From NCBI GenBank assembly GCA_003167415.1, contig PMTF01000009.1, positions 180,065 through 244,064 on the forward strand: a stretch of DNA of 64,000 nt, read 5' to 3'. Positions 29,390 through 46,807 of this stretch are shown piece after piece; position 1 is the stretch's first letter; every line of letters starts with the position of its first letter. The DNA comes from Acidimicrobiaceae bacterium (GTDB lineage: Bacteria > Actinomycetota > Acidimicrobiia > Acidimicrobiales > RAAP-2). The translations under genes and the position numbers were made by a program. The notes beneath the pieces were generated by a model. It was not told the origin of the DNA and ran no database searches. It saw only the letters and a list, made by a program, of their open reading frames with translations.

Positions 29390-29611
29390 CGGTTACTCGA
29401 GGATCGATCGCCACGTCATCTCGACCCATTCTCCTCGATGACACTGCGCCGCGCACTCGAAACACGTTGCCGATAGAAAGCGAGGTTCCAACGGCGAAGG
29501 TACCCTAAGCTCGCCGGACGATTTAGGCACTTCTTAGGTATCCACTAGAACTTGTTCACGTTCGACCTCGATACTGAAGTTTGTTTCGACAGTGCCAAAA
29601 AGGAGGTCCCG

Positions 29612-30898
29612 ATGGATTGGGACGACGAGAGCCCAGTAGTTCCGGTCAATGATGAAGTTCCGATTGCTGCACCGACGGTGCCGACGGTCACCGTGAGCAA
29701 GACCCGTTGGCGGATCGCGAAGGGACTCAGTGCACTCGTGCTGGTACTGGTGATTGCCGGTGCGGGCTTCGTCCTCGGTCACGACATCGTGACACCGACG
29801 CCGATTCGCTCCGCGGCACCGAGATTCTCCCTCCCCACCTTCCCCTCGGGCGGTTTCGACGGCGGTAGCAACAATCCCTCGTTCCCGGTGCCCACGGTCT
29901 CGCCCCAAAACACAAGGGTGAACGCCGCGGCGGCCAAGATCGCCAGCAAGGTCGACCCCGGTTTGGTCGACATCACGACGACTTTCGCCGGTCAAAGCGG
30001 TACCGCCGAAGGAACCGGAATGATCCTTAGCGCCAACGGCCTCGTGCTAACCAACAATCACGTCGTCGAGGACGCCGCGACGTTATCCGTGCGCGACGTG
30101 GCCACGAATACCATCTACGTCGGTACCGTGGTCGGCTACGACCTCACGGACGACGTCGCCCTGATCCAACTGAAGAACGCCAGTGGACTCACCACGATCA
30201 AGACGGCGAACTCCGACAAGGTCGCCTCGGGCGAGAAGATCGTGGGCGTCGGCAACGCCGGTGGAGTCGGCGGCACGCCGAGCTACGTGGCCGGAAGCGT
30301 CGTCGCGCTCAATCAAGCGATCACGGCCGGCGACGAGACGAATCCGGCGGGCTCCGAGAGCTTGAGCGGTCTCATTGAGGTGAACGCCGCGATCCAACCC
30401 GGTGATTCCGGTGGACCGTTGGTGAATCAAAAAGGAGCCGTGGTCGGAATGGACACCGCAGGCTCGGACCTCAGCGGTGGCTTCGGCTTCAACCCGGGCG
30501 GCTCGTCCAGTTCCCGCGGCTACGCCATCCCCATCAACACGGCCCTGTCGATTGTCTCGTCGATCAAGGACGGCAACGCCGTCGCGGGGGTCCACATTGG
30601 ACGGACAGCGTTCTTAGGTGTCGAATTTGATTCGGCCGCCGCGTCCTTCGCGGGCGCGAACGCCCCGAGCGGTGTCACCATCGCCGGCACCATCGTCGGA
30701 ACACCGGCGCAAAAAGCCGGACTGGCCGCTGGAGACGTCATTACTTCGATCGACGGTCAGTCCGCCACGACGGGCAGCGAACTACAGACCATCCTGTTGA
30801 CCAAGAAGCCCGGTGACACGATCCACGTGAACTACATGAACGTGAGCGGCGCCGCCAACACCGTGAATGTCAAACTCGCGTCCGGACCGGCGCAGTAA
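29612..30898 (+). CDS. HtrA/DegP-like membrane-anchored serine protease with PDZ domain
   Basis: 428 residues. An acidic cytoplasmic N-terminus and one membrane helix (39-57) place the protease outside the membrane. The trypsin-like triad is visible as His150 (LTNNHVVED), Asp181 (LTDDVALIQL) and Ser266 (QPGDSGGPLV). A PDZ domain (about 330-425) has AQKAGLAAGDVITSIDGQ. Such proteases degrade or process misfolded exported proteins. The ATG at 29612 follows a strong AAAAAGGAGG site. It stands as a single gene. Confidence 0.93.
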   Translation: MDWDDESPVVPVNDEVPIAAPTVPTVTVSKTRWRIAKGLSALVLVLVIAGAGFVLGHDIVTPTPIRSAAPRFSLPTFPSGGFDGGSNNPSFPVPTVSPQNTRVNAAAAKIASKVDPGLVDITTTFAGQSGTAEGTGMILSANGLVLTNNHVVEDAATLSVRDVATNTIYVGTVVGYDLTDDVALIQLKNASGLTTIKTANSDKVASGEKIVGVGNAGGVGGTPSYVAGSVVALNQAITAGDETNPAGSESLSGLIEVNAAIQPGDSGGPLVNQKGAVVGMDTAGSDLSGGFGFNPGGSSSSRGYAIPINTALSIVSSIKDGNAVAGVHIGRTAFLGVEFDSAAASFAGANAPSGVTIAGTIVGTPAQKAGLAAGDVITSIDGQSATTGSELQTILLTKKPGDTIHVNYMNVSGAANTVNVKLASGPAQ

Positions 30899-36411: not shown

Positions 36412-37197
36412 TCAGCCGACGGTCATGCCACCGTCGACAGCGACGTCGGCGCCCGTGATGGCGGACGCGGCCGGCGAACAGAGCCAGGTAATCGTCGAGG
36501 CGACCTCGACCGGTTCGATGAGTCGGCCGATGGGCTGTTGCTGCGCGAACGCTTCGGCACTCTCGAGTTCGTAGACCTTGGCCGACGCGTCCAGCAACGC
36601 GGTGCGCGTCGAACCGGGACTGACGGCGTTCGCGGTCACGCCGTACGGTGCGAGGTCCATCGCGGTGCCGCGGATTAACCCGACGACGGCGTGCTTCGCC
36701 GCCGAGTAGGCCGCCAGGTGAAAGAGACCGGTGCGGCCCGCGGCCGACGCCACGGCCACGATGCGCCCGTGCGCCTCTTTACCGTTAGCGATCAACATCG
36801 GAGCGGCCGCTTCGATCAGCCGGCGCGTGCCGAGCACGTTCACCGACCATACCGCGTCCCACGCGGCGTCGGTCAGCTCCCAAATCGGTGCGCCGCCCGC
36901 GACCACGCCCGCGCACGCGACGACGGCGTCCAGTCGGCCGAAATGACGCGTCGCGGTCTCGACCGCGAGTTGCATGTCCGAGGCGCTTCGCACGTCACCG
37001 ACGAGACCGAGAACCGACTCGCCGTGACGCGCGACGACGGCGTCCAAGTCACCCGACGTCGCGAGCGCGTACGGGACATCGGGAATGTCGCGACAGCGGT
37101 CGACCGCGATAACTCGGTAGCCGTCGTTCACGAGGGCGTCGACGGTGGCCGCGCCAATACCGCGCGCCGCGCCCGTGACAATGGCGACGCGACTCAC
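36412..37197 (-). CDS. Mycofactocin-coupled short-chain dehydrogenase
   Basis: 261 residues, SDR fold. The dinucleotide motif TGAARGIG is at 8-15 and the catalytic Ser-Tyr-Lys is in AVASAAGRT and AYSAAKHAVVG. An insertion after the second strand (DRCRDIPDVPYALATSGDL) is the hallmark of SDR subfamilies found only in genomes with mycofactocin, where it is thought to hold the NAD tightly so that mycofactocin, not free NAD, accepts the electrons. It overlaps mftD by 4 bases and is the last gene of the mft operon. Its substrate alcohol is unknown. Confidence 0.85.
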   Translation of the reverse strand: MSRVAIVTGAARGIGAATVDALVNDGYRVIAVDRCRDIPDVPYALATSGDLDAVVARHGESVLGLVGDVRSASDMQLAVETATRHFGRLDAVVACAGVVAGGAPIWELTDAAWDAVWSVNVLGTRRLIEAAAPMLIANGKEAHGRIVAVASAAGRTGLFHLAAYSAAKHAVVGLIRGTAMDLAPYGVTANAVSPGSTRTALLDASAKVYELESAEAFAQQQPIGRLIEPVEVASTITWLCSPAASAITGADVAVDGGMTVG

Positions 37198-38366
37198 GAA
37201 CCCAACCTTCGAAAGAAGTCATCGGGCGCGACGACGTCACTTCGCGACAGTTCGCTCACGTCGGATTTGCCGAGCGCGAGGAGCGCCGAGTCGATTCCGC
37301 CGCGCAACACATCGAGCACGTTCTCCACGCCGGCTTGGCCCTCCGCCGCCAGTCCCCACAGATAGGCCCGCCCGATCATGACCGCGCGGGCGCCCAGCGC
37401 CAGAGCCTTCACGACGTCGCTGCCGCGTCGAACGCCGCCATCCAGCAGTACTTCGATCTGGTCACCGACCGCGTCGACGACGGCCGGCAGCGCGCGAATT
37501 GGCGCCGGCGTTCCGTCCAGGTTGTTACCGCCGTGATTCGAGACCGACAGCGCCGTGGCTCCGAGATCGACGACGCGTTTGGCGTCGTCGACGCGACTGA
37601 CGCCCTTGACCATGAAGGGCCCCTCCCAGTTCGATCGCAGCCACGCCACGTCGTCCCAATCGGGCAGCGGACTTTGCATCCACTCGTAGTAGGCACCGAA
37701 GAACGTCGGGGGCCTCTCACCGGGTTTGGCCATGTTCGGCGTCAACAGCTCCGGCAGGTGACCGGTCTTGGCGTAGGACCAGAACCAGCCTGGGCGCAGC
37801 GCCACCTCCGGCGCGAGTTTCACCACCGCCTTCCAGTCGATCTTGTCGGGGATCCACGGACTACCCCAGTCGCGTCCGTTGGCGAAGGACCAGTCGAGCG
37901 TGAGGATGATGCCTTTGGCACCGGCGTCGCGGGCCCGGGCCAGGCGCGCGAGCATCGTGTCGCGGTCCCCCGACCAGTACATCTGGAAGAGGACCTGTGA
38001 GTTCACGGCGCAGACCTCTTCGATCGAGCGACTGGCGAAGGAACTGAGCCCCATCGCCACGCCCCGATTGGCCGCGGCTTTAGCGACCGCCACTTCGCCA
38101 TCCGGGTGGACCGCCTGCACCCCCGTCGGCGAGATCACCACGGGCATCGAGACCGACTGGCCCATGACCGTCGTCGCCATCGTGCGCTCGCGTTTGTTGC
38201 CGGCCACGTGCGGTGCGAAGCCCAACAGATCGAAGGATTCCAAGTTGTCCCTGGAGGAGAGCCCTTTTTCCGATCCGGCAATGAGCGCGGCGTAGACGGA
38301 TTTGGGGAGGCGTTTCTCAGCCCGACGTTGGGCGACGGCTACCGACTCGAACCACTTGCTCGCCAT
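37194..38366 (-). CDS. mftD: Mycofactocin biosynthesis FMN-dependent dehydrogenase MftD
   Basis: 390 residues, an alpha-hydroxy-acid oxidase-type FMN barrel protein. Family features include PVVISPTGVQAVHPDGEVAVA, the active-site SNHGGNNLDGTPAPIRALP and LLDGGVRRGSDVVKALALGARAV. MftD oxidises and deaminates the AHDP intermediate to give pre-mycofactocin. The last codon overlaps the SDR start (ATGA). A 57-base gap separates it from mftC. Confidence 0.93.
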   Translation of the reverse strand: MASKWFESVAVAQRRAEKRLPKSVYAALIAGSEKGLSSRDNLESFDLLGFAPHVAGNKRERTMATTVMGQSVSMPVVISPTGVQAVHPDGEVAVAKAAANRGVAMGLSSFASRSIEEVCAVNSQVLFQMYWSGDRDTMLARLARARDAGAKGIILTLDWSFANGRDWGSPWIPDKIDWKAVVKLAPEVALRPGWFWSYAKTGHLPELLTPNMAKPGERPPTFFGAYYEWMQSPLPDWDDVAWLRSNWEGPFMVKGVSRVDDAKRVVDLGATALSVSNHGGNNLDGTPAPIRALPAVVDAVGDQIEVLLDGGVRRGSDVVKALALGARAVMIGRAYLWGLAAEGQAGVENVLDVLRGGIDSALLALGKSDVSELSRSDVVAPDDFFRRLGS

Positions 38367-38423
38367 GACAACCCCGTTCCCGACTCAGTGCGACCTTAAC
38401 CGAGCGCTCAATTTCGTCCCGAG

Positions 38424-39539
38424 TCAGCGCGCGGAGATAGCTACCGGGACCTTTCGTGAGTGGTCGGGCGACGACGTTGGTCGAATCGTGAGCTTCTTGG
38501 CGGCGAGCGCGGTCTCGCCGTGACCGAAGACGCACTCCGGGTCGGGGTCGCTCATCTCGAGTCCGGTGAAGAACTTCGCCGCCATGCATCCGCCGCGACA
38601 CGCGTCGTACGAACCACACGACCCGCACGCACCGGCGTTGCCCGGTTCGCGAAGAACACGAAACAGTTCGCTGTTCTGCCACACGTCGCGAAACCCCGCC
38701 GGGCGTACGTTGCCGGCTCGGAACTCCTCGTGGATCACGAAGGGACAGGCGTAGACCTCGCCGACCGGATCGATGAGACAGACGACGCGCCCGGCGCCGC
38801 AGAGGTTCAGACCCGAGAGCGGTTCGCCGAGCGCCGAGAGGTGAAAGAACGAGTCGCCCGTCAGAACATTCGGGCGCTCGAGGAGCCATCTATACAGACG
38901 CCGGTTTTGCTCGAGCGTCGGGTGCAGCTCCTGCCATACGTCGACACCCCGGCCCGAGGGACGAAAACGCGTGAGACGAAGTTCCGCGCCGTAGGCCGCG
39001 GCGAGCGCCTCGAATTCGGGGAGCTGTTCAATCGACTCTCGGGTCATCACAACCGAGATCTTGAACTGACCGAAGTCGGCGCTCTTAAGGTTGTCCATGG
39101 CGCGTCGGGCGCTGTCGTAACTGCCCGCGCCGCGGATCCGATCACTCGTCGCCGCGTCGACGCCGTCGATCGAGACCTGGATGTCGAGATAGTCGATGCT
39201 CGCCAGTCGACGCGCGGCTGCTTGGTCAATCCGGGTTCCGTTCGTCGAGAACTTGACGCCGACGTGTTGTCCGACCGCGTGTTCGATGAGTTCAAAGAAG
39301 TCACGGCGGATCATTGGCTCGCCACCGCCAATGTTGAGGTAGAAGATCTGCATCGCCGCGATCTCGTCGATCAACGCTTTGGCTTCTCCAGTACTCAACT
39401 CATTCGGGTCGCGTCGTCCGGAAGAAGAGAGGCAGTGCGTGCAGGCGAGGTTGCAGGCGTAGGTCAATTCCCAAGTGAGACAGATCGGCGCGGCGAGACC
39501 TCGCTCGAATCGATCACGTAACGAACGCTCAGCGCCCAC
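38424..39539 (-). CDS. mftC: Mycofactocin radical SAM maturase MftC
   Basis: 371 residues. The radical SAM cluster ligands are Cys29, Cys33 and Cys36 in YACNLACTHC. The SPASM domain (about 270-350) has further cysteine groups (CGAGRVVCLID, YACPF, CGSCGSYDACRGGC) for two auxiliary clusters. MftC decarboxylates and cross-links the C-terminal Val-Tyr of MftA. GTG start, 11 bases within the end of mftB, so the two are translationally coupled, as expected since MftB presents the peptide to MftC. Confidence 0.95.
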   Translation of the reverse strand: MGAERSLRDRFERGLAAPICLTWELTYACNLACTHCLSSSGRRDPNELSTGEAKALIDEIAAMQIFYLNIGGGEPMIRRDFFELIEHAVGQHVGVKFSTNGTRIDQAAARRLASIDYLDIQVSIDGVDAATSDRIRGAGSYDSARRAMDNLKSADFGQFKISVVMTRESIEQLPEFEALAAAYGAELRLTRFRPSGRGVDVWQELHPTLEQNRRLYRWLLERPNVLTGDSFFHLSALGEPLSGLNLCGAGRVVCLIDPVGEVYACPFVIHEEFRAGNVRPAGFRDVWQNSELFRVLREPGNAGACGSCGSYDACRGGCMAAKFFTGLEMSDPDPECVFGHGETALAAKKLTIRPTSSPDHSRKVPVAISAR

Positions 39540-39810
39540 AGAGAATCTCCGATCGAACGAGCGACGTCAGCGCGGTTAGATAGCGACCGCGTTGGTCCGC
39601 GGGCACCAGCGCATCAATAGCGTCGTCGGCGCTCTCGAAATCTCCTACGCGGCGAACGACGTCGACCAGCTCGCGGGATTTCAAAAAAACCAGTCGTCGC
39701 GTGTCGTGGTGGTACGCCAAGGCACCAAAGGACTCGTCACGAAGTGAAACCTGCTCGTTCAATTGCCACGGCGCGGTCGGGTCAAATATGACGTCGGTTA
39801 ACAGCGTCAC
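39529..39810 (-). CDS. mftB: Mycofactocin peptide chaperone MftB
   Basis: 93 residues, a RiPP-recognition (PqqD-like) protein. WQLNEQVSLRDESFGALAYH followed by RRLVFLKSRELVDVVRRV fits the winged-helix-like recognition fold that binds the MftA leader. GTG start 2 bases after the mftA stop; the end overlaps mftC. In other bacteria it is essential for MftC action. Confidence 0.92.
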   Translation of the reverse strand: MTLLTDVIFDPTAPWQLNEQVSLRDESFGALAYHHDTRRLVFLKSRELVDVVRRVGDFESADDAIDALVPADQRGRYLTALTSLVRSEILCGR

Positions 39811-39812
39811 GT

Positions 39813-39917
39813 TTAGTAGACGCCGCAGAGTCCGTCGATGGAGACCTCTTCGACGAGCAGCTCCTCGCTCTCTTCAGTCTCGACAACCTGTTCTTCGATC
39901 AGTGTTTCGGTCGGCAT
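39813..39917 (-). CDS. mftA: Mycofactocin precursor peptide MftA
   Basis: 34 residues: a Glu-rich leader (MPTETLIEEQVVETEESEEL) and the conserved C-terminal core SIDGLCGVY. Canonical MftA ends IDGMCGVY; here Met is Leu. The last Val-Tyr is the part MftC modifies and which becomes the cofactor. It is too short for ordinary gene finding but is preceded by a very strong GAGGAGGAACG ribosome site and lies directly before mftB. A strong ribosome site ahead of a substrate peptide is typical of RiPP precursors. Confidence 0.96.
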   Translation of the reverse strand: MPTETLIEEQVVETEESEELLVEEVSIDGLCGVY

Positions 39918-39991
39918 CGTTCCTCCTCGAACCTCTCCATTCTGACCGGTGCCACAACCGTCGCCGGACCAAATCGTGTCAGACTCCACTC

Positions 39992-41443
39992 GTGAGCCAA
40001 CTTCTCCCCCTAGCCCCTCTACCGGTCGAGGTCCCCATCCCTACCGGTACCAAGGTGACGCTCGACGACGGGGCGAAGTTCCTCGACCGCGATCTTCTGA
40101 GCGGCGGATCACCGTGGCGGCTACTACGTTTGCCGGGCGGTTCCCGAGCGGTGGCCGAGCGATGGGTGCACGGCAATATGGTCCAGGCCGGCGAGGAGCG
40201 ATTTGCTCGTACGCTCGTGCAACAAGGTCTCTTGCATCCCCATTTTCGCAGCGCCGCGAGCGTGGACGAGGTGGACGTCATCGTGCCGATTCGCAATGAC
40301 GTTGACTCGCTCGCTCAATTGCTGGATTCCTTGCGAGGACTTCACGTAACCGTTGTCGATGACGCCTCGAGTGATGGCGAAGCAGTCGCTCGTTGCGCGC
40401 GGAACTTCGGTGCCGACGTCGTGCGTTTGGAAGAGAACCTGGGGCCCGGTGGCGCGCGCAACGCCGGAGCTCGCGCCACGTCGCGACCGCTATTGTGGTT
40501 CATCGACGTCGACGTCACCATCGATAACGCCCTTGACGTGCTGTCCCGGTTGCAGGCGCACTTCGAGGATCCTCTCGAAGGCGCTGTCGCACCGCGAATT
40601 CGCGGCACTCAGGGTCCGTCGCTTCGCGACCGATTCGAAGAGCAGTTCAGTCCTTTGGACGTGGGAGAACGCAGCGCGCTCGTCATTCCCAATTCGAGTG
40701 TCCACTTCGTACCGGGTGCGTGCCTGCTCGTTCGACGCAGCAGTTTCGGCGACGGCTTCGACGATTCCTTGCGCTACGGCGAAGACGTCGACCTCGTATG
40801 GCGACTTCACGATCGAGGATGGCTCGTTCGCTACGTCGCCGACGTTGTCGTCCTTCACAAAGCCCGAGGTACGTGGCGCGGTTGGTGGGGCCAACGCGTC
40901 CGCTACGGGCAGTCCTCGAGCGAACTCGCCAAGCGACACGGCAGGCGACTTGCGCCTTTTCGAGCTGACACTTGGACGCTCCTTACCTGGACGAGCGCAC
41001 TGGTCGGCAAACCGATGGTGGGGCTTCGCATCATCGGCGCCGCCCGCGATCAATTACGAGAACGAATGCTCACCACGACCGACAACGCCGACCAAGTCGC
41101 GGGCGAACTCGTCGGACGGGGCATGGTTCGTGCCGGCCCTCTGATGGCGCGCGCGGTGGTACGGACCTTCGGCATCCTGGTCGTGGTGTGCGCACTACAC
41201 CCGATGCTTCGCCGTCGCGCCCTGATGCTCTTCGTGGTCGGAACGGCGTATCGATGGCGCTCGGCTCGCCTTCACGTCGTCGACATCCCGCTCGGAGTGG
41301 CCGATGACGTCGCTTACGGGGTCGGCGTTATGACCGGCGCGGTTCGTTCGCGCTCTCTCGGCGCACTGAGGCCACACATCACGAAGTCGACGCTCGGGCT
41401 ACGCAACGTCCTGGGGCTGAAACCGGGCGCGAGCAACCTTTGA
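39992..41443 (+). CDS. mftF: Mycofactocin glycosyltransferase MftF
   Basis: 483 residues from the GTG at 39992. GT-A fold of family 2: VDVIVPIRNDVDSLAQLLDS, VVDDASSDG, NLGPGGARNAGARA and the metal-binding DVDV (WFIDVDVTI). C-terminal hydrophobic helices suggest membrane association. MftF adds a beta-1,4-glucan chain to pre-mycofactocin. The open frame extends further upstream, but there it lies antisense to mftA and mftB and is not coding. It is divergent from mftA, with a 74-base shared promoter region; in mycobacteria mftF is co-directional. Confidence 0.93.
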   Translation: MSQLLPLAPLPVEVPIPTGTKVTLDDGAKFLDRDLLSGGSPWRLLRLPGGSRAVAERWVHGNMVQAGEERFARTLVQQGLLHPHFRSAASVDEVDVIVPIRNDVDSLAQLLDSLRGLHVTVVDDASSDGEAVARCARNFGADVVRLEENLGPGGARNAGARATSRPLLWFIDVDVTIDNALDVLSRLQAHFEDPLEGAVAPRIRGTQGPSLRDRFEEQFSPLDVGERSALVIPNSSVHFVPGACLLVRRSSFGDGFDDSLRYGEDVDLVWRLHDRGWLVRYVADVVVLHKARGTWRGWWGQRVRYGQSSSELAKRHGRRLAPFRADTWTLLTWTSALVGKPMVGLRIIGAARDQLRERMLTTTDNADQVAGELVGRGMVRAGPLMARAVVRTFGILVVVCALHPMLRRRALMLFVVGTAYRWRSARLHVVDIPLGVADDVAYGVGVMTGAVRSRSLGALRPHITKSTLGLRNVLGLKPGASNL

Positions 41444-41483: not shown

Positions 41484-44003
41484 TCACTCGATTGGTTGAC
41501 GACCCAACACGGCTGGTTCGCGGCTGGCGAAGAGCCAACCCACGACCGCCGCAATGGCTGGCATACCGAAGAGAATGAGCGAGAGGTCACCGAAGGGAAC
41601 GTTGCCGAGCGCGGAGATCCCGCCGTTGAGCGAGTTGCTCCGCAACCAACCGATCATGGCTACGTAGCCACCCACCACTCCGAGGAGCGCCCCGAGAAAA
41701 CCGAGCGCCCCAGCCGTCACGGCGGTCAACGTGCGACGCGTGTAACTCGACGCTCCCGTCGCCGCCAGTGTTCGCAGTTCGCTCGAGGTTTCGCTGCGAA
41801 CCAGACCAACGGACATCGCCAGGACGCCGAGGGCGATAATGATTCCGAAGAGCGTCGCCCAATTGATGATCGTCGAACCCGAGGGAATGTCATTCCTCGA
41901 TTCGACTTGGAGCTGTGCCGTTGACGCGGTGAGCTGGGCGCTGCTGATCTGGTCCGCGGTGAAGCTTTGCGTGCCGAACACCAGCCAGTCGCTGGCGTCG
42001 CTCGAGATATGGAACTTCTTCATCGCGTATTCAGTGATGATCGTGTTCGGCGCCGAGGTGCCACTGGGCAGCGCACTGACCTCCTGGATCAACGGATCCC
42101 TGACACTTCCTCCGTTGCCGTTCTGGTTGGCCCCCCGCTTCGGATTCCCGCTCCCGTAGTCCATGACGAGTCCCGAGACACCAGAGAGGCCCGGACGCGA
42201 CGTCAAGACGTCCGCCTTCGGGTTGATTTCGGACGCCTTGATTCCGAACTCACGCAACAACTGCGGCGTCGCGACATAGATCTGCCCGCTCCAGCTGCGG
42301 CCACCCTGCGTGCCACTCAAATAAGCGTTCGGCGATTCGAGAGCGAGGAGTTGTGCGTCCAGTCCCTTGGCGATCTGCTCAGCCCCCGCGGCGAGCTGCG
42401 CCGGAGTCGCGGTTTCCGTTTTGTGATGCCGCACCCGGACGAGTTGGCCCTTGGCGTTGCGATGTACGAGGATCACACCTTGCGGTGGGAAGCCAGTGTG
42501 GAGCGCGAGTTGATTCGAAGCGAGGTTGGGCCCCGCGTAGTCGAGCACGTTACTGAAGCGCGACGCCGCCGCGAGCACCACGATGACCGATATGAGGACG
42601 CCGATGCTGATCGCCGAGAGGGCCGATCCTGATCGTGCCCGATACCGAGCGAGGTCGCGCAGCGCGAGCCTCGCCGCTATAGGCGCACGGCGACTGACGC
42701 GTTCGGTCAGCGACAAGAAGAATGGCGCGAGCAGGATCAATCCGGGCATGAGGAAGACCAGTCCGAGGAGGAGTTCGGGCGCCCCACCGCTGCCGTTGCC
42801 GCCACCGGTTCCGCCGGAATAGCCGAGCAATACGAACGCCGCGACGAGCAGGACGATGCCCGGGAGTGCGGAGCGATGGATCTGACGAGGCGGCGCCGGG
42901 CGACCGGACAACGCGTGGACGATCGGGATCTTGGTCACGGCGCGCGCCGGCCGAGATGACGCGAAGTACGCCGCCAGGACGGCGAGGACCATCGCCAGGA
43001 GTACAACGAGCCACGGAAGTGCGAACGCGCCGACGAGGTGATGCGCGCTCTGTTCGAAGCTCGGACGATACGCCAACCAACCAGCGAACCCGACGACGAA
43101 GCCGAGGATTGCGCCGACGATGCCAACGACGGTGCCGTTCGCACTGACGACCAGTCGCACGTGACGGTCCGTCGCGCCGATCGACTCGAGCATCCCAATG
43201 GAACGCATGCGACGTTGCGCCAGTACCGTGAAGCCGCCGATCGACACGAGCGCGATCAGCAGCATTCCGAGGACCAGGGCCGCGAGCGAGATTGTCTCCG
43301 GATTCAGCGGATTGGACGCCGCGACGGAAGCCGGCGTACTGATCTGAACTCCCTTGCCGAGCGCTCGCAGCGCGCTACTCGGAACTCGAAAGAGCACCGT
43401 GACTTGCGAAGGGTTCGGGACTTGGCCCGGTACGACCAGCGCGAAGGCATCGAGAAGGCTCTGCGGGTTCTGAACGATACCCACAACGTCGCGAGTAACG
43501 CCGCCGACTTGCCAGGACTTGCCGACCGAAAGATGGAAGGCCGACGCCACACCACTCGTGACGGCGACCTCGTCAGCGCCCGAAGGGTAGTGACCGCTAA
43601 CGAGCGAGAGTATCGGGGCGCCGAACGGTCCGGGAGCGTTCTGTGATCGGAGTTGATACGTGTTGATGGATCCGGGGATCGAGTACGTCGCGTTCTCGAT
43701 CACTTGGACGGTGCCGAGGTGCTCCGCTTTCGCGATGAACCTTTGCGCCTTTGAGCTGTAGGACGCAAAGGACACCGAATAGGGCGCCGTGCCGAAGCCG
43801 GCGTCCTTGGGCGGTGGATTATTCACCGCGACCGACGAGCCGAGGATGGTCGCTGCAACCGCCACGGTGATGAGAGCGAGGATCAGAAACTGTTGACGCC
43901 ATTCTCGCCGAAAGAGGCGCCAGGCCCAGTGCGTCACGGCTCGGCGCGCGGGAAGACCTCCATCGGACGGCCGTCGCTCGGATCGAAGCTGGAAGTCGTC
44001 CAT
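41484..44003 (-). CDS. ABC transporter permease, FtsX/MacB type
   Basis: 839 residues. It has an N-terminal membrane helix (about 36-56) and an extracytoplasmic domain. A first FtsX-like membrane domain (about 255-370) begins with VLAQRRMRSIGMLESIGATDRHVRLV. Linker helices near 395 and 430, a second extracytoplasmic domain (500-700) and a second FtsX domain near the end (ELRTLAATGASSYTRRTLTAV) follow. It pairs with the ATPase gene 2 bases upstream. Such exporters act on lipoproteins, peptides or antibiotics by mechanotransmission; the substrate is not identifiable. It converges on mftF. Confidence 0.87.
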   Translation of the reverse strand: MDDFQLRSERRPSDGGLPARRAVTHWAWRLFRREWRQQFLILALITVAVAATILGSSVAVNNPPPKDAGFGTAPYSVSFASYSSKAQRFIAKAEHLGTVQVIENATYSIPGSINTYQLRSQNAPGPFGAPILSLVSGHYPSGADEVAVTSGVASAFHLSVGKSWQVGGVTRDVVGIVQNPQSLLDAFALVVPGQVPNPSQVTVLFRVPSSALRALGKGVQISTPASVAASNPLNPETISLAALVLGMLLIALVSIGGFTVLAQRRMRSIGMLESIGATDRHVRLVVSANGTVVGIVGAILGFVVGFAGWLAYRPSFEQSAHHLVGAFALPWLVVLLAMVLAVLAAYFASSRPARAVTKIPIVHALSGRPAPPRQIHRSALPGIVLLVAAFVLLGYSGGTGGGNGSGGAPELLLGLVFLMPGLILLAPFFLSLTERVSRRAPIAARLALRDLARYRARSGSALSAISIGVLISVIVVLAAASRFSNVLDYAGPNLASNQLALHTGFPPQGVILVHRNAKGQLVRVRHHKTETATPAQLAAGAEQIAKGLDAQLLALESPNAYLSGTQGGRSWSGQIYVATPQLLREFGIKASEINPKADVLTSRPGLSGVSGLVMDYGSGNPKRGANQNGNGGSVRDPLIQEVSALPSGTSAPNTIITEYAMKKFHISSDASDWLVFGTQSFTADQISSAQLTASTAQLQVESRNDIPSGSTIINWATLFGIIIALGVLAMSVGLVRSETSSELRTLAATGASSYTRRTLTAVTAGALGFLGALLGVVGGYVAMIGWLRSNSLNGGISALGNVPFGDLSLILFGMPAIAAVVGWLFASREPAVLGRQPIE

Positions 44004-44005
44004 GG

Positions 44006-44734
44006 TTATGACGGGTTCGGAACTTCGGGGTTGAGCAGTTCCTCGGGACTCGGCGGTGGCAACGTTTCGTCAACCGCGTTGCCGTCACGCAAGAAAACCA
44101 CGCGATCGGCCCACGAGGCGAGCTTGGCGTCGTGGGTCACCACGACTGCGGCGACCCCACCGTGACACGCAGCGAGGATCATTCGCATGACGGCTTCGCC
44201 ATTGACCGAATCCAAGGCGCCCGACGGTTCGTCGGCGAGGAGCAGACTTCGCTCGCCCACCACGGCCCTGGCTATGGCGACTCGCTGACGTTCACCACCG
44301 GACAGTTGATCGGGAAAGCTCTCGGCGCGGTCCGCCAGGCCTAGCCCCTCGAGCGCCGCCATTCCTTTGGCCCTCGCCTTCTTCATCGATATCCCGTCCA
44401 ACTCGAGCGGCAGGGAGACATTCTCGACTGCGGTGAGACCGGCGAGCAGGTTGAAGTCTTGAAAGACATATCCGACGGATCGTCGTCGAAGACGGGCTTT
44501 GTCGTTTCGCGACATTCCGGACAGACGAGCGCCGTCGATCATGACGTCGCCGGTCGTCGGCTCTTCGAGGCTCCCCGCGATCGTGAGGAGTGTCGATTTA
44601 CCCGACCCGCTCGGTCCCATGATCGCGACGAGCGAACCGCGCTCGACCGCGAGGTCAATGTCGGCGATGGCGTCCACCTCGTTGGCGCCCTGTCCGTACC
44701 TCTTAGACACTTGTCGTAGTTCCAACATGCTCAT
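44006..44734 (-). CDS. ABC transporter ATPase, LolD/MacB type
   Basis: 242 residues: Walker A GPSGSGKST at 40-48, signature LSGGERQRVAIARA, Walker B LLLADEPSGALD. The GALD ending and the SVGYVFQDFNLLAGLTAVENV Q-loop are typical of the FtsX-partnered ATPases. It overlaps the padR gene by 4 bases at its start and is followed by the permease, so padR-ATPase-permease form one operon. Confidence 0.92.
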   Translation of the reverse strand: MSMLELRQVSKRYGQGANEVDAIADIDLAVERGSLVAIMGPSGSGKSTLLTIAGSLEEPTTGDVMIDGARLSGMSRNDKARLRRRSVGYVFQDFNLLAGLTAVENVSLPLELDGISMKKARAKGMAALEGLGLADRAESFPDQLSGGERQRVAIARAVVGERSLLLADEPSGALDSVNGEAVMRMILAACHGGVAAVVVTHDAKLASWADRVVFLRDGNAVDETLPPPSPEELLNPEVPNPS

Positions 44735-45312
44735 CGGTGGGCTCCAGTCCTTCGGTGAATACTCGGCAGTGCAACAGGGTTCTCCGGCGCCGGTTCGTAC
44801 GCGGCCCGGCGTAGTCGACCGTCGGCCGCGTCAAGCCAGCGCACGACGGAGTCCAGGCGAAAGAGTTCGGCGTCGACCGCCAGCGCGAAGGCGAGATCGA
44901 AACGAGATTCATCTTCTTTCAGGTGAGTCCATTGCTGCATCAGTTGCACGATGTAGCGCCGGTGAACCTGGATGACTTCGTACACGTCGACGTCCGGCAG
45001 TCGCGACGCTACAAGTACCTTGATCACCAACTCGTCCCTCGGCGGTTCCGACAGGTCGGGCGGCGTACGGAGCCAATGAGAGAGCTCTTCACTTCCCTCG
45101 TCGGTGATTCGGTAGTTCTTTTGGCGTTCATCCACCTCGACGTCGTCTGACCGGGCCAGGCCGTCGCGTTCGAGTCGCTGCAGCGTCGTGTAGACCTGAC
45201 CGACATTGAGGGGCCACACTTCGCCAGTGCTCATTTCGAACTCCTGGCGGAGCTGAAAGCCATATTTTGGGCCCTCGCTCAAGAGAGCCAGTAACGAATG
45301 ACGGATGCTCAT
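44731..45312 (-). CDS. PadR-family transcriptional regulator
   Basis: 193 residues. N-terminal winged helix MSIRHSLLALLSEGPKYGFQLRQEF and VGQVYTTLQRLERDGL with the basic wing (VDERQKNYRITDEG); the C-terminal helical dimerisation domain extends to about 175. PadR repressors often control efflux genes next to them. A perfect palindrome lies 20 bases upstream and overlaps the promoter, suggesting autorepression of the whole exporter operon. Confidence 0.9.
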   Translation of the reverse strand: MSIRHSLLALLSEGPKYGFQLRQEFEMSTGEVWPLNVGQVYTTLQRLERDGLARSDDVEVDERQKNYRITDEGSEELSHWLRTPPDLSEPPRDELVIKVLVASRLPDVDVYEVIQVHRRYIVQLMQQWTHLKEDESRFDLAFALAVDAELFRLDSVVRWLDAADGRLRRAAYEPAPENPVALPSIHRRTGAHR

Positions 45313-45655: not shown

Positions 45656-46807
45656 TTAGAAACGGACGACCCCACGAATGTTCTCGCCGGATTCCAAGTC
45701 GTCGTAACCCTTTTGCACCTCATCGAGCGAGTACTCCCGGGTGACCAGCTCATCGATCATGAACTTGCCTTCGTGGTGGAGTCGAAGGAGTCGAGGAATC
45801 TGCAAACGTGGTGCTTCGGAGCCGAAGACGGTCCCGCGCAGTTCCTGATTCATCATCGAGAACATGAAGAGATTGAGTTCCACCGACGTCTGATCCCATG
45901 CCGCCAGCCCTGCGGCGACGACGACACCGCCCTTCGCGGTGATGGAACGGGCCTGCTCGATGATCTCGCTAGTGGCCTCGCCGACCGTGATGATCACTAC
46001 GTCACAATTCTTGCCCCACGTCAGGTCAGGCAGGATCGTGAAGGCCGCCTCGAGCGTCGTGGTCGAGCCGTGCGTAGCGCCAATCTTCATGGCGCGGTCG
46101 ATCTTGGACTGATTTGTGTCAATCGCGACGACGGCGCGCGCACCGGCGTGCAGCGCTCCCTGGATCGCGGCCGATCCGAGACCGCCGCATCCGATGACCG
46201 CCACCACGTCGCCGGGCTTCACGCCACCGCGGTTGACAGCTGCGCCGAATCCGGTTGAAATCCCGCACGAGAGTAAGGCCGCGGCTCGAAGGTCGTACCA
46301 CGACTCGACACGGATCACCGAGGCTTCGTGGACCACGATGTACTCGGCGAACGTTCCCAGGTTGCACATGCGATTGACGTTGGTCTCGCCCAAGTGATGG
46401 CGCCACGTTCCGTCCGAGATCATCGGCCCGGCCAGCGTGCCGGCGGCCATGTCGCAGATGTACGGTCGCCCCGAGACGCAGTATTCGCACTTGCCGCACG
46501 AGGGAATGAACGACGTGGCGACGTGGTCACCGACCGTGACCGACGTCACGCCGTCGCCGACCGAGTCCACGACGCCCGAGCCCTCGTGTCCTCCGATGAT
46601 CGGGAACATGCTCGGGCGCCCCGAGATCATCTCCAGGGCGACGGTTGACTGCGCGAGCGCGCCGGTCTGCAAGTGCAGGTCCGAATGGCACAACCCGGAG
46701 AACGCCATCTTGACCCGTACCTCGTAGGCGTGGGGATCGTCGATCTCGATGGTCTCGGTGTGCCACGGACCGTGAACTTCACTAAGGATTGAGGCCCTGA
46801 CGTCCAT
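45656..46807 (-). CDS. Zinc-dependent alcohol dehydrogenase, NDMA-dependent (mycofactocin-associated) type
   Basis: 383 residues, medium-chain dehydrogenase. Catalytic zinc ligands are Cys40 (GLCHSDLH) and His74-Glu75 (GGHEGSG). The structural zinc cysteines are 104, 107, 110 and 118 (CGKCEYC...C), and the NAD motif GCGGLGSAAIQ is present. The insert DGTWRHHLGETNVNRMCNLGTFAEY resembles the family of dehydrogenases that keep NAD tightly bound and need an artificial acceptor such as NDMA, which is associated with mycofactocin genomes. It lies about 4 kb from the mft genes. The alcohol substrate is unknown. Confidence 0.82.
   Translation of the reverse strand: MDVRASILSEVHGPWHTETIEIDDPHAYEVRVKMAFSGLCHSDLHLQTGALAQSTVALEMISGRPSMFPIIGGHEGSGVVDSVGDGVTSVTVGDHVATSFIPSCGKCEYCVSGRPYICDMAAGTLAGPMISDGTWRHHLGETNVNRMCNLGTFAEYIVVHEASVIRVESWYDLRAAALLSCGISTGFGAAVNRGGVKPGDVVAVIGCGGLGSAAIQGALHAGARAVVAIDTNQSKIDRAMKIGATHGSTTTLEAAFTILPDLTWGKNCDVVIITVGEATSEIIEQARSITAKGGVVVAAGLAAWDQTSVELNLFMFSMMNQELRGTVFGSEAPRLQIPRLLRLHHEGKFMIDELVTREYSLDEVQKGYDDLESGENIRGVVRF

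Follow-up and report, generated by a model that had tools for sequence, protein, structure and literature searches.

The closest described relatives of the locus treated here are the mftABCDEF loci of Mycobacterium smegmatis and M. tuberculosis, in which mftA, mftB, mftC and mftD follow one another in that order and mftF comes after mftE (PMC6529628). In M. smegmatis, the role of MftE is to cut the cyclised core free. Without mftE, M. smegmatis still makes mycofactocins, at a lower level and with accumulation of glycylated forms of 3-amino-5-[(p-hydroxyphenyl)methyl]-4,4-dimethyl-2-pyrrolidinone (Gly-AHDP forms), from which the authors infer that an unknown peptidase replaces MftE and that an aminopeptidase would in theory be sufficient (PMC7491314). 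The deletion mutant also grows slowly on ethanol (PMC6529628). More broadly, the MftD, MftE and MftR families occur in most, not all, mycofactocin species (Haft 2011, PMC3023750).

The locus described here lies in a window of 64,000 nucleotides, the whole stretch of DNA that was analysed, from contig PMTF01000009.1 of an Acidimicrobiaceae bacterium (assembly GCA_003167415.1). Judging from the genes present, we hold with moderate confidence that it is a functional locus for the redox cofactor mycofactocin in an uncultured Acidimicrobiaceae genus that has lost the dedicated peptidase MftE and would use one or more general peptidases instead. That mftE is not universal is already known; what appears to be new here is its natural loss across most of a genus in which the rest of the pathway is kept. 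A limited literature search found no earlier description of such a loss, or of mycofactocin under the stem Acidimicrobi-, a result that applies to that search and does not establish that the literature lacks one.

The locus compared with known systems

A preliminary description, made from the sequence of the window, had read a short-chain dehydrogenase/reductase (SDR) gene, mftD, mftC, mftB and mftA on one strand with mftF divergent, and had reported MftE, MftR and MftG as missing from the window. All six genes are present at that place and on those strands, and the three absences are borne out. Each of the six exceeds its curated NCBIfam cut-off, as does an NDMA-dependent alcohol dehydrogenase (NDMA-ADH) in the same window (Table 1). 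Transcription on the minus strand runs A-B-C-D-SDR, opposite to mftF, and the locus spans 36412-41443. All four families of the Haft 2011 marker set (TIGR03962, TIGR03965, TIGR03967 and TIGR03969) are over cut-off and contiguous at 38424-41443. The MftD family (TIGR03966) is likewise represented, and the linked nicotinoprotein oxidoreductases are represented by the SDR (TIGR04504) and the NDMA-ADH (TIGR03989). With a spacing of 57 bases, there is no space between mftC and mftD for mftE or a sizeable remnant of it.

The locus shares mftA, mftB, mftC, mftD and mftF, all over NCBIfam equivalog cut-offs, and the order A-B-C-D with those of M. smegmatis and M. tuberculosis. It differs from them in that no mftE was found in the genome, mftF is divergent, mftR is not represented over cut-off and mftG is without a match. 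The mftE deletion mutant of M. smegmatis, which still makes some product (PMC7491314), is likewise a mycofactocin pathway without MftE. Here, however, the absence is natural and extends across most of a genus.

Table 1. Mycofactocin genes of the window and the features beside them, with model scores
Feature	Coordinates	Strand	Evidence
Mycofactocin-coupled SDR oxidoreductase	36412..37197	-	TIGR04504 340 bits, cut-off 250
mftD, pre-mycofactocin synthase (flavin mononucleotide enzyme)	37194..38366	-	TIGR03966 677 bits, cut-off 471
Gap between mftC and mftD, 57 bases	38367..38423	-	space between open reading frames and sequence
mftC, radical SAM/SPASM maturase	38424..39539	-	TIGR03962 587 bits, cut-off 265
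mftB, chaperone / RiPP (ribosomally synthesised and post-translationally modified peptide) recognition element	39529..39810	-	TIGR03967 92 bits, cut-off 33
mftA, precursor, 34 aa, C-terminal end IDGLCGVY	39813..39917	-	TIGR03969 43 bits, cut-off 25; PF23709 41 bits, cut-off 27
mftF, glycosyltransferase, divergent	39992..41443	+	TIGR03965 289 bits, cut-off 280 (narrow margin)
FtsX-type permease, ABC ATPase and PadR regulator	41484-45312		between mftF and NDMA-ADH
NDMA-dependent alcohol dehydrogenase, mycofactocin-linked nicotinoprotein	45656..46807	-	TIGR03989 462 bits, cut-off 440

Absence of MftE from the genome and from most of the genus

The genome of the window (G000) comprises 2.66 Mb in 29 contigs and is 96.58% complete. 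It has no match to the MftE model TIGR03964 at E ≤ 0.001, and none to the creatininase family PF02633 at E ≤ 1, which excludes a standard mftE nearby but outside the window in this assembly. The preliminary description had left two options, that the missing genes lie elsewhere or that another peptidase has taken over. For MftE, the first is excluded by the completeness of the genome together with the pattern in the genus; the second is the likeliest option that remains, with a precedent in M. smegmatis (PMC7491314).

When 172 genomes of the family were searched, 130 proved to have mftC, and 70 of these belong to the genus of the window. MftE was detected in only seven of these 70 (G193, G286, G361, G339, G110, G074 and G358, at 152-240 bits), leaving 63 without it; G286 has two copies on separate contigs, and the matches of G074 and G358 lie below the model cut-off of 172, yet both genes stand directly 3′ of mftC. 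No MftE match at 1e-5 was obtained in 57 of the 70 genomes, while six further MftE-less genomes (G280, G311, G314, G296, G288 and G309) have only a distant creatininase relative at 49-90 bits. Other genera of the family present the opposite picture, with MftE in 41 of the 44 mftC genomes tested (44 of 60 were tested; G223, G224 and G248 lack it), and the difference between 7/70 and 41/44 is strong (Fisher p 4e-20, uncorrected for kinship).

It is hardly credible that MftE was missed through an artefact of assembly or detection, either because it lies on a missing contig or because it has diverged too far for the model. The assembly is admittedly a draft with a few percent missing. However, the same model detects MftE in the seven relatives named above, the broader creatininase model also gave no match in the genome of the window at its permissive threshold, and among the 39 genomes of the genus that are at least 90% complete MftE is found in six and lacking in 33, where incompleteness would account for about two absences. 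The absence of MftE is therefore lineage-wide and goes beyond a gap in one assembly.

Conservation of the remaining pathway

Pairwise comparison of the window with six MftE-less relatives gave ratios of nonsynonymous to synonymous substitution (dN/dS) of 0-0.26 for mftA, mftB, mftC, mftD, mftF and the SDR gene, and the retained genes are thus under purifying selection. MftD is over cut-off in 32 of the 33 MftE-less genomes of at least 90% completeness, and the remaining genome has it in two pieces. Among the loci inspected, split readings were seen for mftD of G285 and mftC of G275, each in two pieces, which reflect either decay or sequencing error. These split genes and the missing MftE are what a decaying pathway would show, or one that ends at a leader-bound product and has no need of leader removal. 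Such an outcome appears improbable, given the low dN/dS in all six comparisons, the recurrence of the gene set across the fetched loci and the retention of the SDR and NDMA-ADH genes next to it in most of them.

The substrate of the missing step is also conserved. In all seven peptides from MftE-bearing genomes, MftA ends with the 14 residues LVEEVSIDGLCGVY, and the 48 peptides from MftE-less genomes deviate from this only by V/I exchanges at two positions and an L/I exchange at one. Apart from these exchanges, the cleavage region does not differ between genomes that have MftE and those that lack it. The Leu of the C-terminal IDGLCGVY is present in 46 of the 48 MftE-less and in 7/7 MftE-bearing peptides of the genus, with Ile in the other two; the ten MftA peptides in this comparison that come from other genera read IDGMCGVY, and L146 has Ile. 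This Met/Leu change does not track the loss of MftE.

The other proteins were compared by alignment columns with more than 90% identity in MftE-less rows that was shared by at most a third of the MftE-bearing rows. MftB and MftD have no internal column of this kind, MftC and the SDR have one each, and MftF has four. Since the MftE-bearing rows number only 6-7, the comparison is uninformative about compensating changes.

Probable release of the core without MftE

Because mftE has been lost while the other genes are kept in apparently working order, the step of MftE is probably carried out by an ordinary peptidase of the cell. By homology, MftB would present MftA to MftC, which would decarboxylate and cyclise the C-terminal Val-Tyr. 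General cytoplasmic peptidases, one or several, would then remove the leader, in the simplest case aminopeptidases that would digest MftA from its N-terminus up to the blocked AHDP core, for which the M. smegmatis mftE deletion offers the precedent; the cyclised C-terminus would resist further digestion. MftD would oxidise AHDP to pre-mycofactocin and MftF would glycosylate it, both steps being again assigned by homology, and the product may be used by the adjacent mycofactocin-coupled SDR and NDMA-type alcohol dehydrogenase, as their families would predict.

Three points weigh against this reading. First, the substitute activity in M. smegmatis is inefficient, so that reliance on it across a genus would be surprising without some adaptation. 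Second, a peptidase was sought in the neighbourhood of the locus by means of Pfam and none was seen: open reading frames lying up to 9 kb from mftC in the fetched loci were grouped into clusters, one representative was scanned from each of the 25 widest except cluster 23, and no peptidase was found among these 24. Third, the distant creatininase relative mentioned above could replace MftE in six genomes only.

Eight of the 24 clusters scanned matched Pfam families, namely aconitase, arginyl-tRNA synthetase, saccharopine-dehydrogenase domains, a periplasmic binding protein, an ABC ATPase, a FecCD permease, a pyridine-nucleotide-disulphide oxidoreductase with a rhodanese domain, and pyruvate kinase. 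The protein with saccharopine-dehydrogenase domains, of about 485 residues, stands downstream of the SDR in 21 MftE-less loci. The other 16 clusters had no match, and many of them are probably antisense open reading frames.

A different possibility, which we consider unlikely, is that the place of MftE has been taken specifically by a dedicated peptidase outside the creatininase family whose gene lies at another site in the genome. Loss of MftE from 63 of 70 genomes with the rest of the pathway kept in the fetched loci would fit such a replacement, and other RiPP pathways use peptidases from outside their clusters (PMC7491314). The conserved neighbours that were scanned, however, included no peptidase family. 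Moreover, MftA and its processing site are unchanged with the loss of MftE, and with no MftA change tied to that loss there is no pointer to a new specificity.

Two individual peptidases were considered and set aside. A D-alanyl-D-alanine carboxypeptidase of family S11, encoded in an insert between mftC and mftD in G319, is formally a peptidase. The substrates of this family are cell-wall peptides. Because of these substrates and because it was seen in one locus only, it is not proposed as the substitute. An HtrA-like trypsin/PDZ protein is encoded in the window at 29552-30898; inspection by eye suggests an N-terminal membrane anchor, and for this reason it is not proposed either.

A genus of environmental actinobacteria, from soil and bog, most of whose species lack MftE amounts to a set of natural knock-outs of the step said to free the redox core. 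Comparing the peptidases of its MftE-less species with those of the few MftE-bearing sisters would be a straightforward way of finding the missing enzyme.

History of the position after mftC

Of the 70 genomes of the genus with mftC, 56 had their loci fetched. In 47 of the 56, all MftE-less, mftC is followed by mftD as the next mycofactocin gene recognised; in seven that gene is mftE, and in two it lies beyond the end of the contig. The contigs of G332 and G333 end before this slot, and both were treated by default as MftE-less with mftD in the slot in the MftC tree, the column comparison and the clade test. In the seven MftE-bearing genomes mftD is found away from the slot, in some of them on the same contig at a distance of several kb upstream. 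The slot thus holds either mftD or mftE, and the two genes exclude each other there, although one genome may hold both. Loci with MftE from this genus and its family, such as those of G110, G193 and G225, have the order F(divergent)-A-B-C-x-SDR with NDMA-ADH near mftF, as in the window; x is mftE in loci of this type, with mftD elsewhere or several kb upstream, whereas in the window x is mftD and mftE was not found. The SDR gene follows mftD in 46 of the 47 genus loci with mftD in the slot and follows mftE in seven of eight loci with mftE there; G353 and G358 end first.

A direct swap of mftE for mftD was the first reading of this pattern. Loci L120, L129 and L138, which have D-E-SDR downstream of mftC, and the mycobacterial order C-D-E suggest instead an ancestral C-D-E-SDR set followed by loss or movement of mftD or mftE. 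On the best MftC tree, the presence of mftD in the slot requires four changes, while a single clade of such loci is not rejected (p-AU, approximately unbiased test, 0.252). This clade test was run without G142 and G315, which sit on a long branch, and rows of 300 residues or fewer were omitted from the trees (e.g., both mftD pieces of G285 and the partial mftC of G286). On the MftD tree, copies from the slot and from other positions are interleaved, and mftD has therefore moved repeatedly or between lineages. The MftD of some genomes from other genera (G022, G223, G225 and G229; L178-L181) is placed on this tree between copies of the window's own genus, which hints that mftD alone may have been transferred.

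MftE and MftD beyond the genus

An order-wide sample of 198 genomes contained 76 with mftC, and 66 of these have MftE (64 over cut-off, G074 with a 169-bit match adjoining mftC, and G143 with the gene split over two contigs). The ten without it are G000, G142 and G168 of the present genus, G056, G098 and G130 of one other genus, and G031, G049, G154 and G063; completeness is 85% for G154 and 78% for G063. A sub-cut-off MftE match of 119-136 bits occurs on another contig in G056, G098, G130 and G063. In G130, G098 and G056, mftD directly follows mftC, as it does in the window. Elsewhere in the phylum, 34 of 38 mftC genomes have an MftE match at 1e-40; G528, G571, G646 and G660 do not, and in three of these (G528, G646 and G660) the mftC match is itself weak (325-340 bits).

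MftD is absent more often than MftE in the order sample, with 47 of the 76 mftC genomes over cut-off and 29 without. The two absences are unlinked: MftD is present in 7/10 MftE-less and 40/66 MftE-bearing genomes (Fisher p 0.73). Two genomes of 95-96% completeness, G031 and G049 (L183 and L184), have mftA, mftB and mftC with no MftE, no MftD over cut-off and no mftF recognised alongside. Four genomes of the same family as the window (G204, G206, G233 and G255) have MftE and MftR over cut-offs and no MftD over cut-off, the mirror image of the gene set of the window.

These distributions bear on a very improbable alternative in which MftD of this genus would itself free the core, oxidising the N-Cα bond of leader-attached AHDP so that hydrolysis of the resulting acyl-imine would yield pre-mycofactocin and a C-terminally amidated leader. 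Removal of the leader by MftD would in that case be an oxidative step with no proteolysis, and this would explain why mftE could be dropped while mftD stayed beside mftC. The position of mftD next to mftC in 47 genomes, every one of them MftE-less, agrees with this, as does the retention of MftD in nearly all of the more complete MftE-less genomes. On the other hand, MftE and MftD occur independently in the order sample, both are lacking in G031 and G049, and MftD has no internal column specific to MftE-less species.

MftR and MftG

In the genome of the window, the MftG model TIGR03970 gave no match at 1e-20 (the search did not extend to TIGR04542 and NF038210, the models for Gordonia and Dietzia), and the same model and threshold gave none in any of the 25 genomes of the family searched. 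The best match to the MftR model TIGR03968 scores 69.5 bits against a cut-off of 224.9 and is most likely an ordinary TetR protein. Of the 29 genomes searched, four have MftR over cut-off, namely G204, G206, G233 and G255 of other genera in the same family; none of the 16 from the present genus does. MftG is absent from about 25% of mftC genomes (PMC11778925), and the MftR family is not universal in mycofactocin species (Haft 2011, PMC3023750); the absence of both is ordinary and unremarkable. For the annotation of mycofactocin in genomes, MftE, MftD, MftR and MftG are unsafe as required markers.

Variation around the locus

Inserts between mftC and mftD were looked at in three genomes. That of G342 measures 1.5 kb and carries a CobB/CobQ-like gene, that of G284 (L191) measures 4.1 kb and carries transposases, and that of G319 (L062 9924-14310, mftC on +) measures 4.4 kb and carries a LysR regulator and an L,D-transpeptidase in addition to the S11 carboxypeptidase. 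In 34 of the 44 genus loci that show both genes, no more than 250 bases separate NDMA-ADH from mftF. In the window the two are 4.2 kb apart, with the FtsX-type permease, the ABC ATPase and the PadR regulator between them, and in G293 and G299 the gap between mftF and NDMA-ADH is of the same size.

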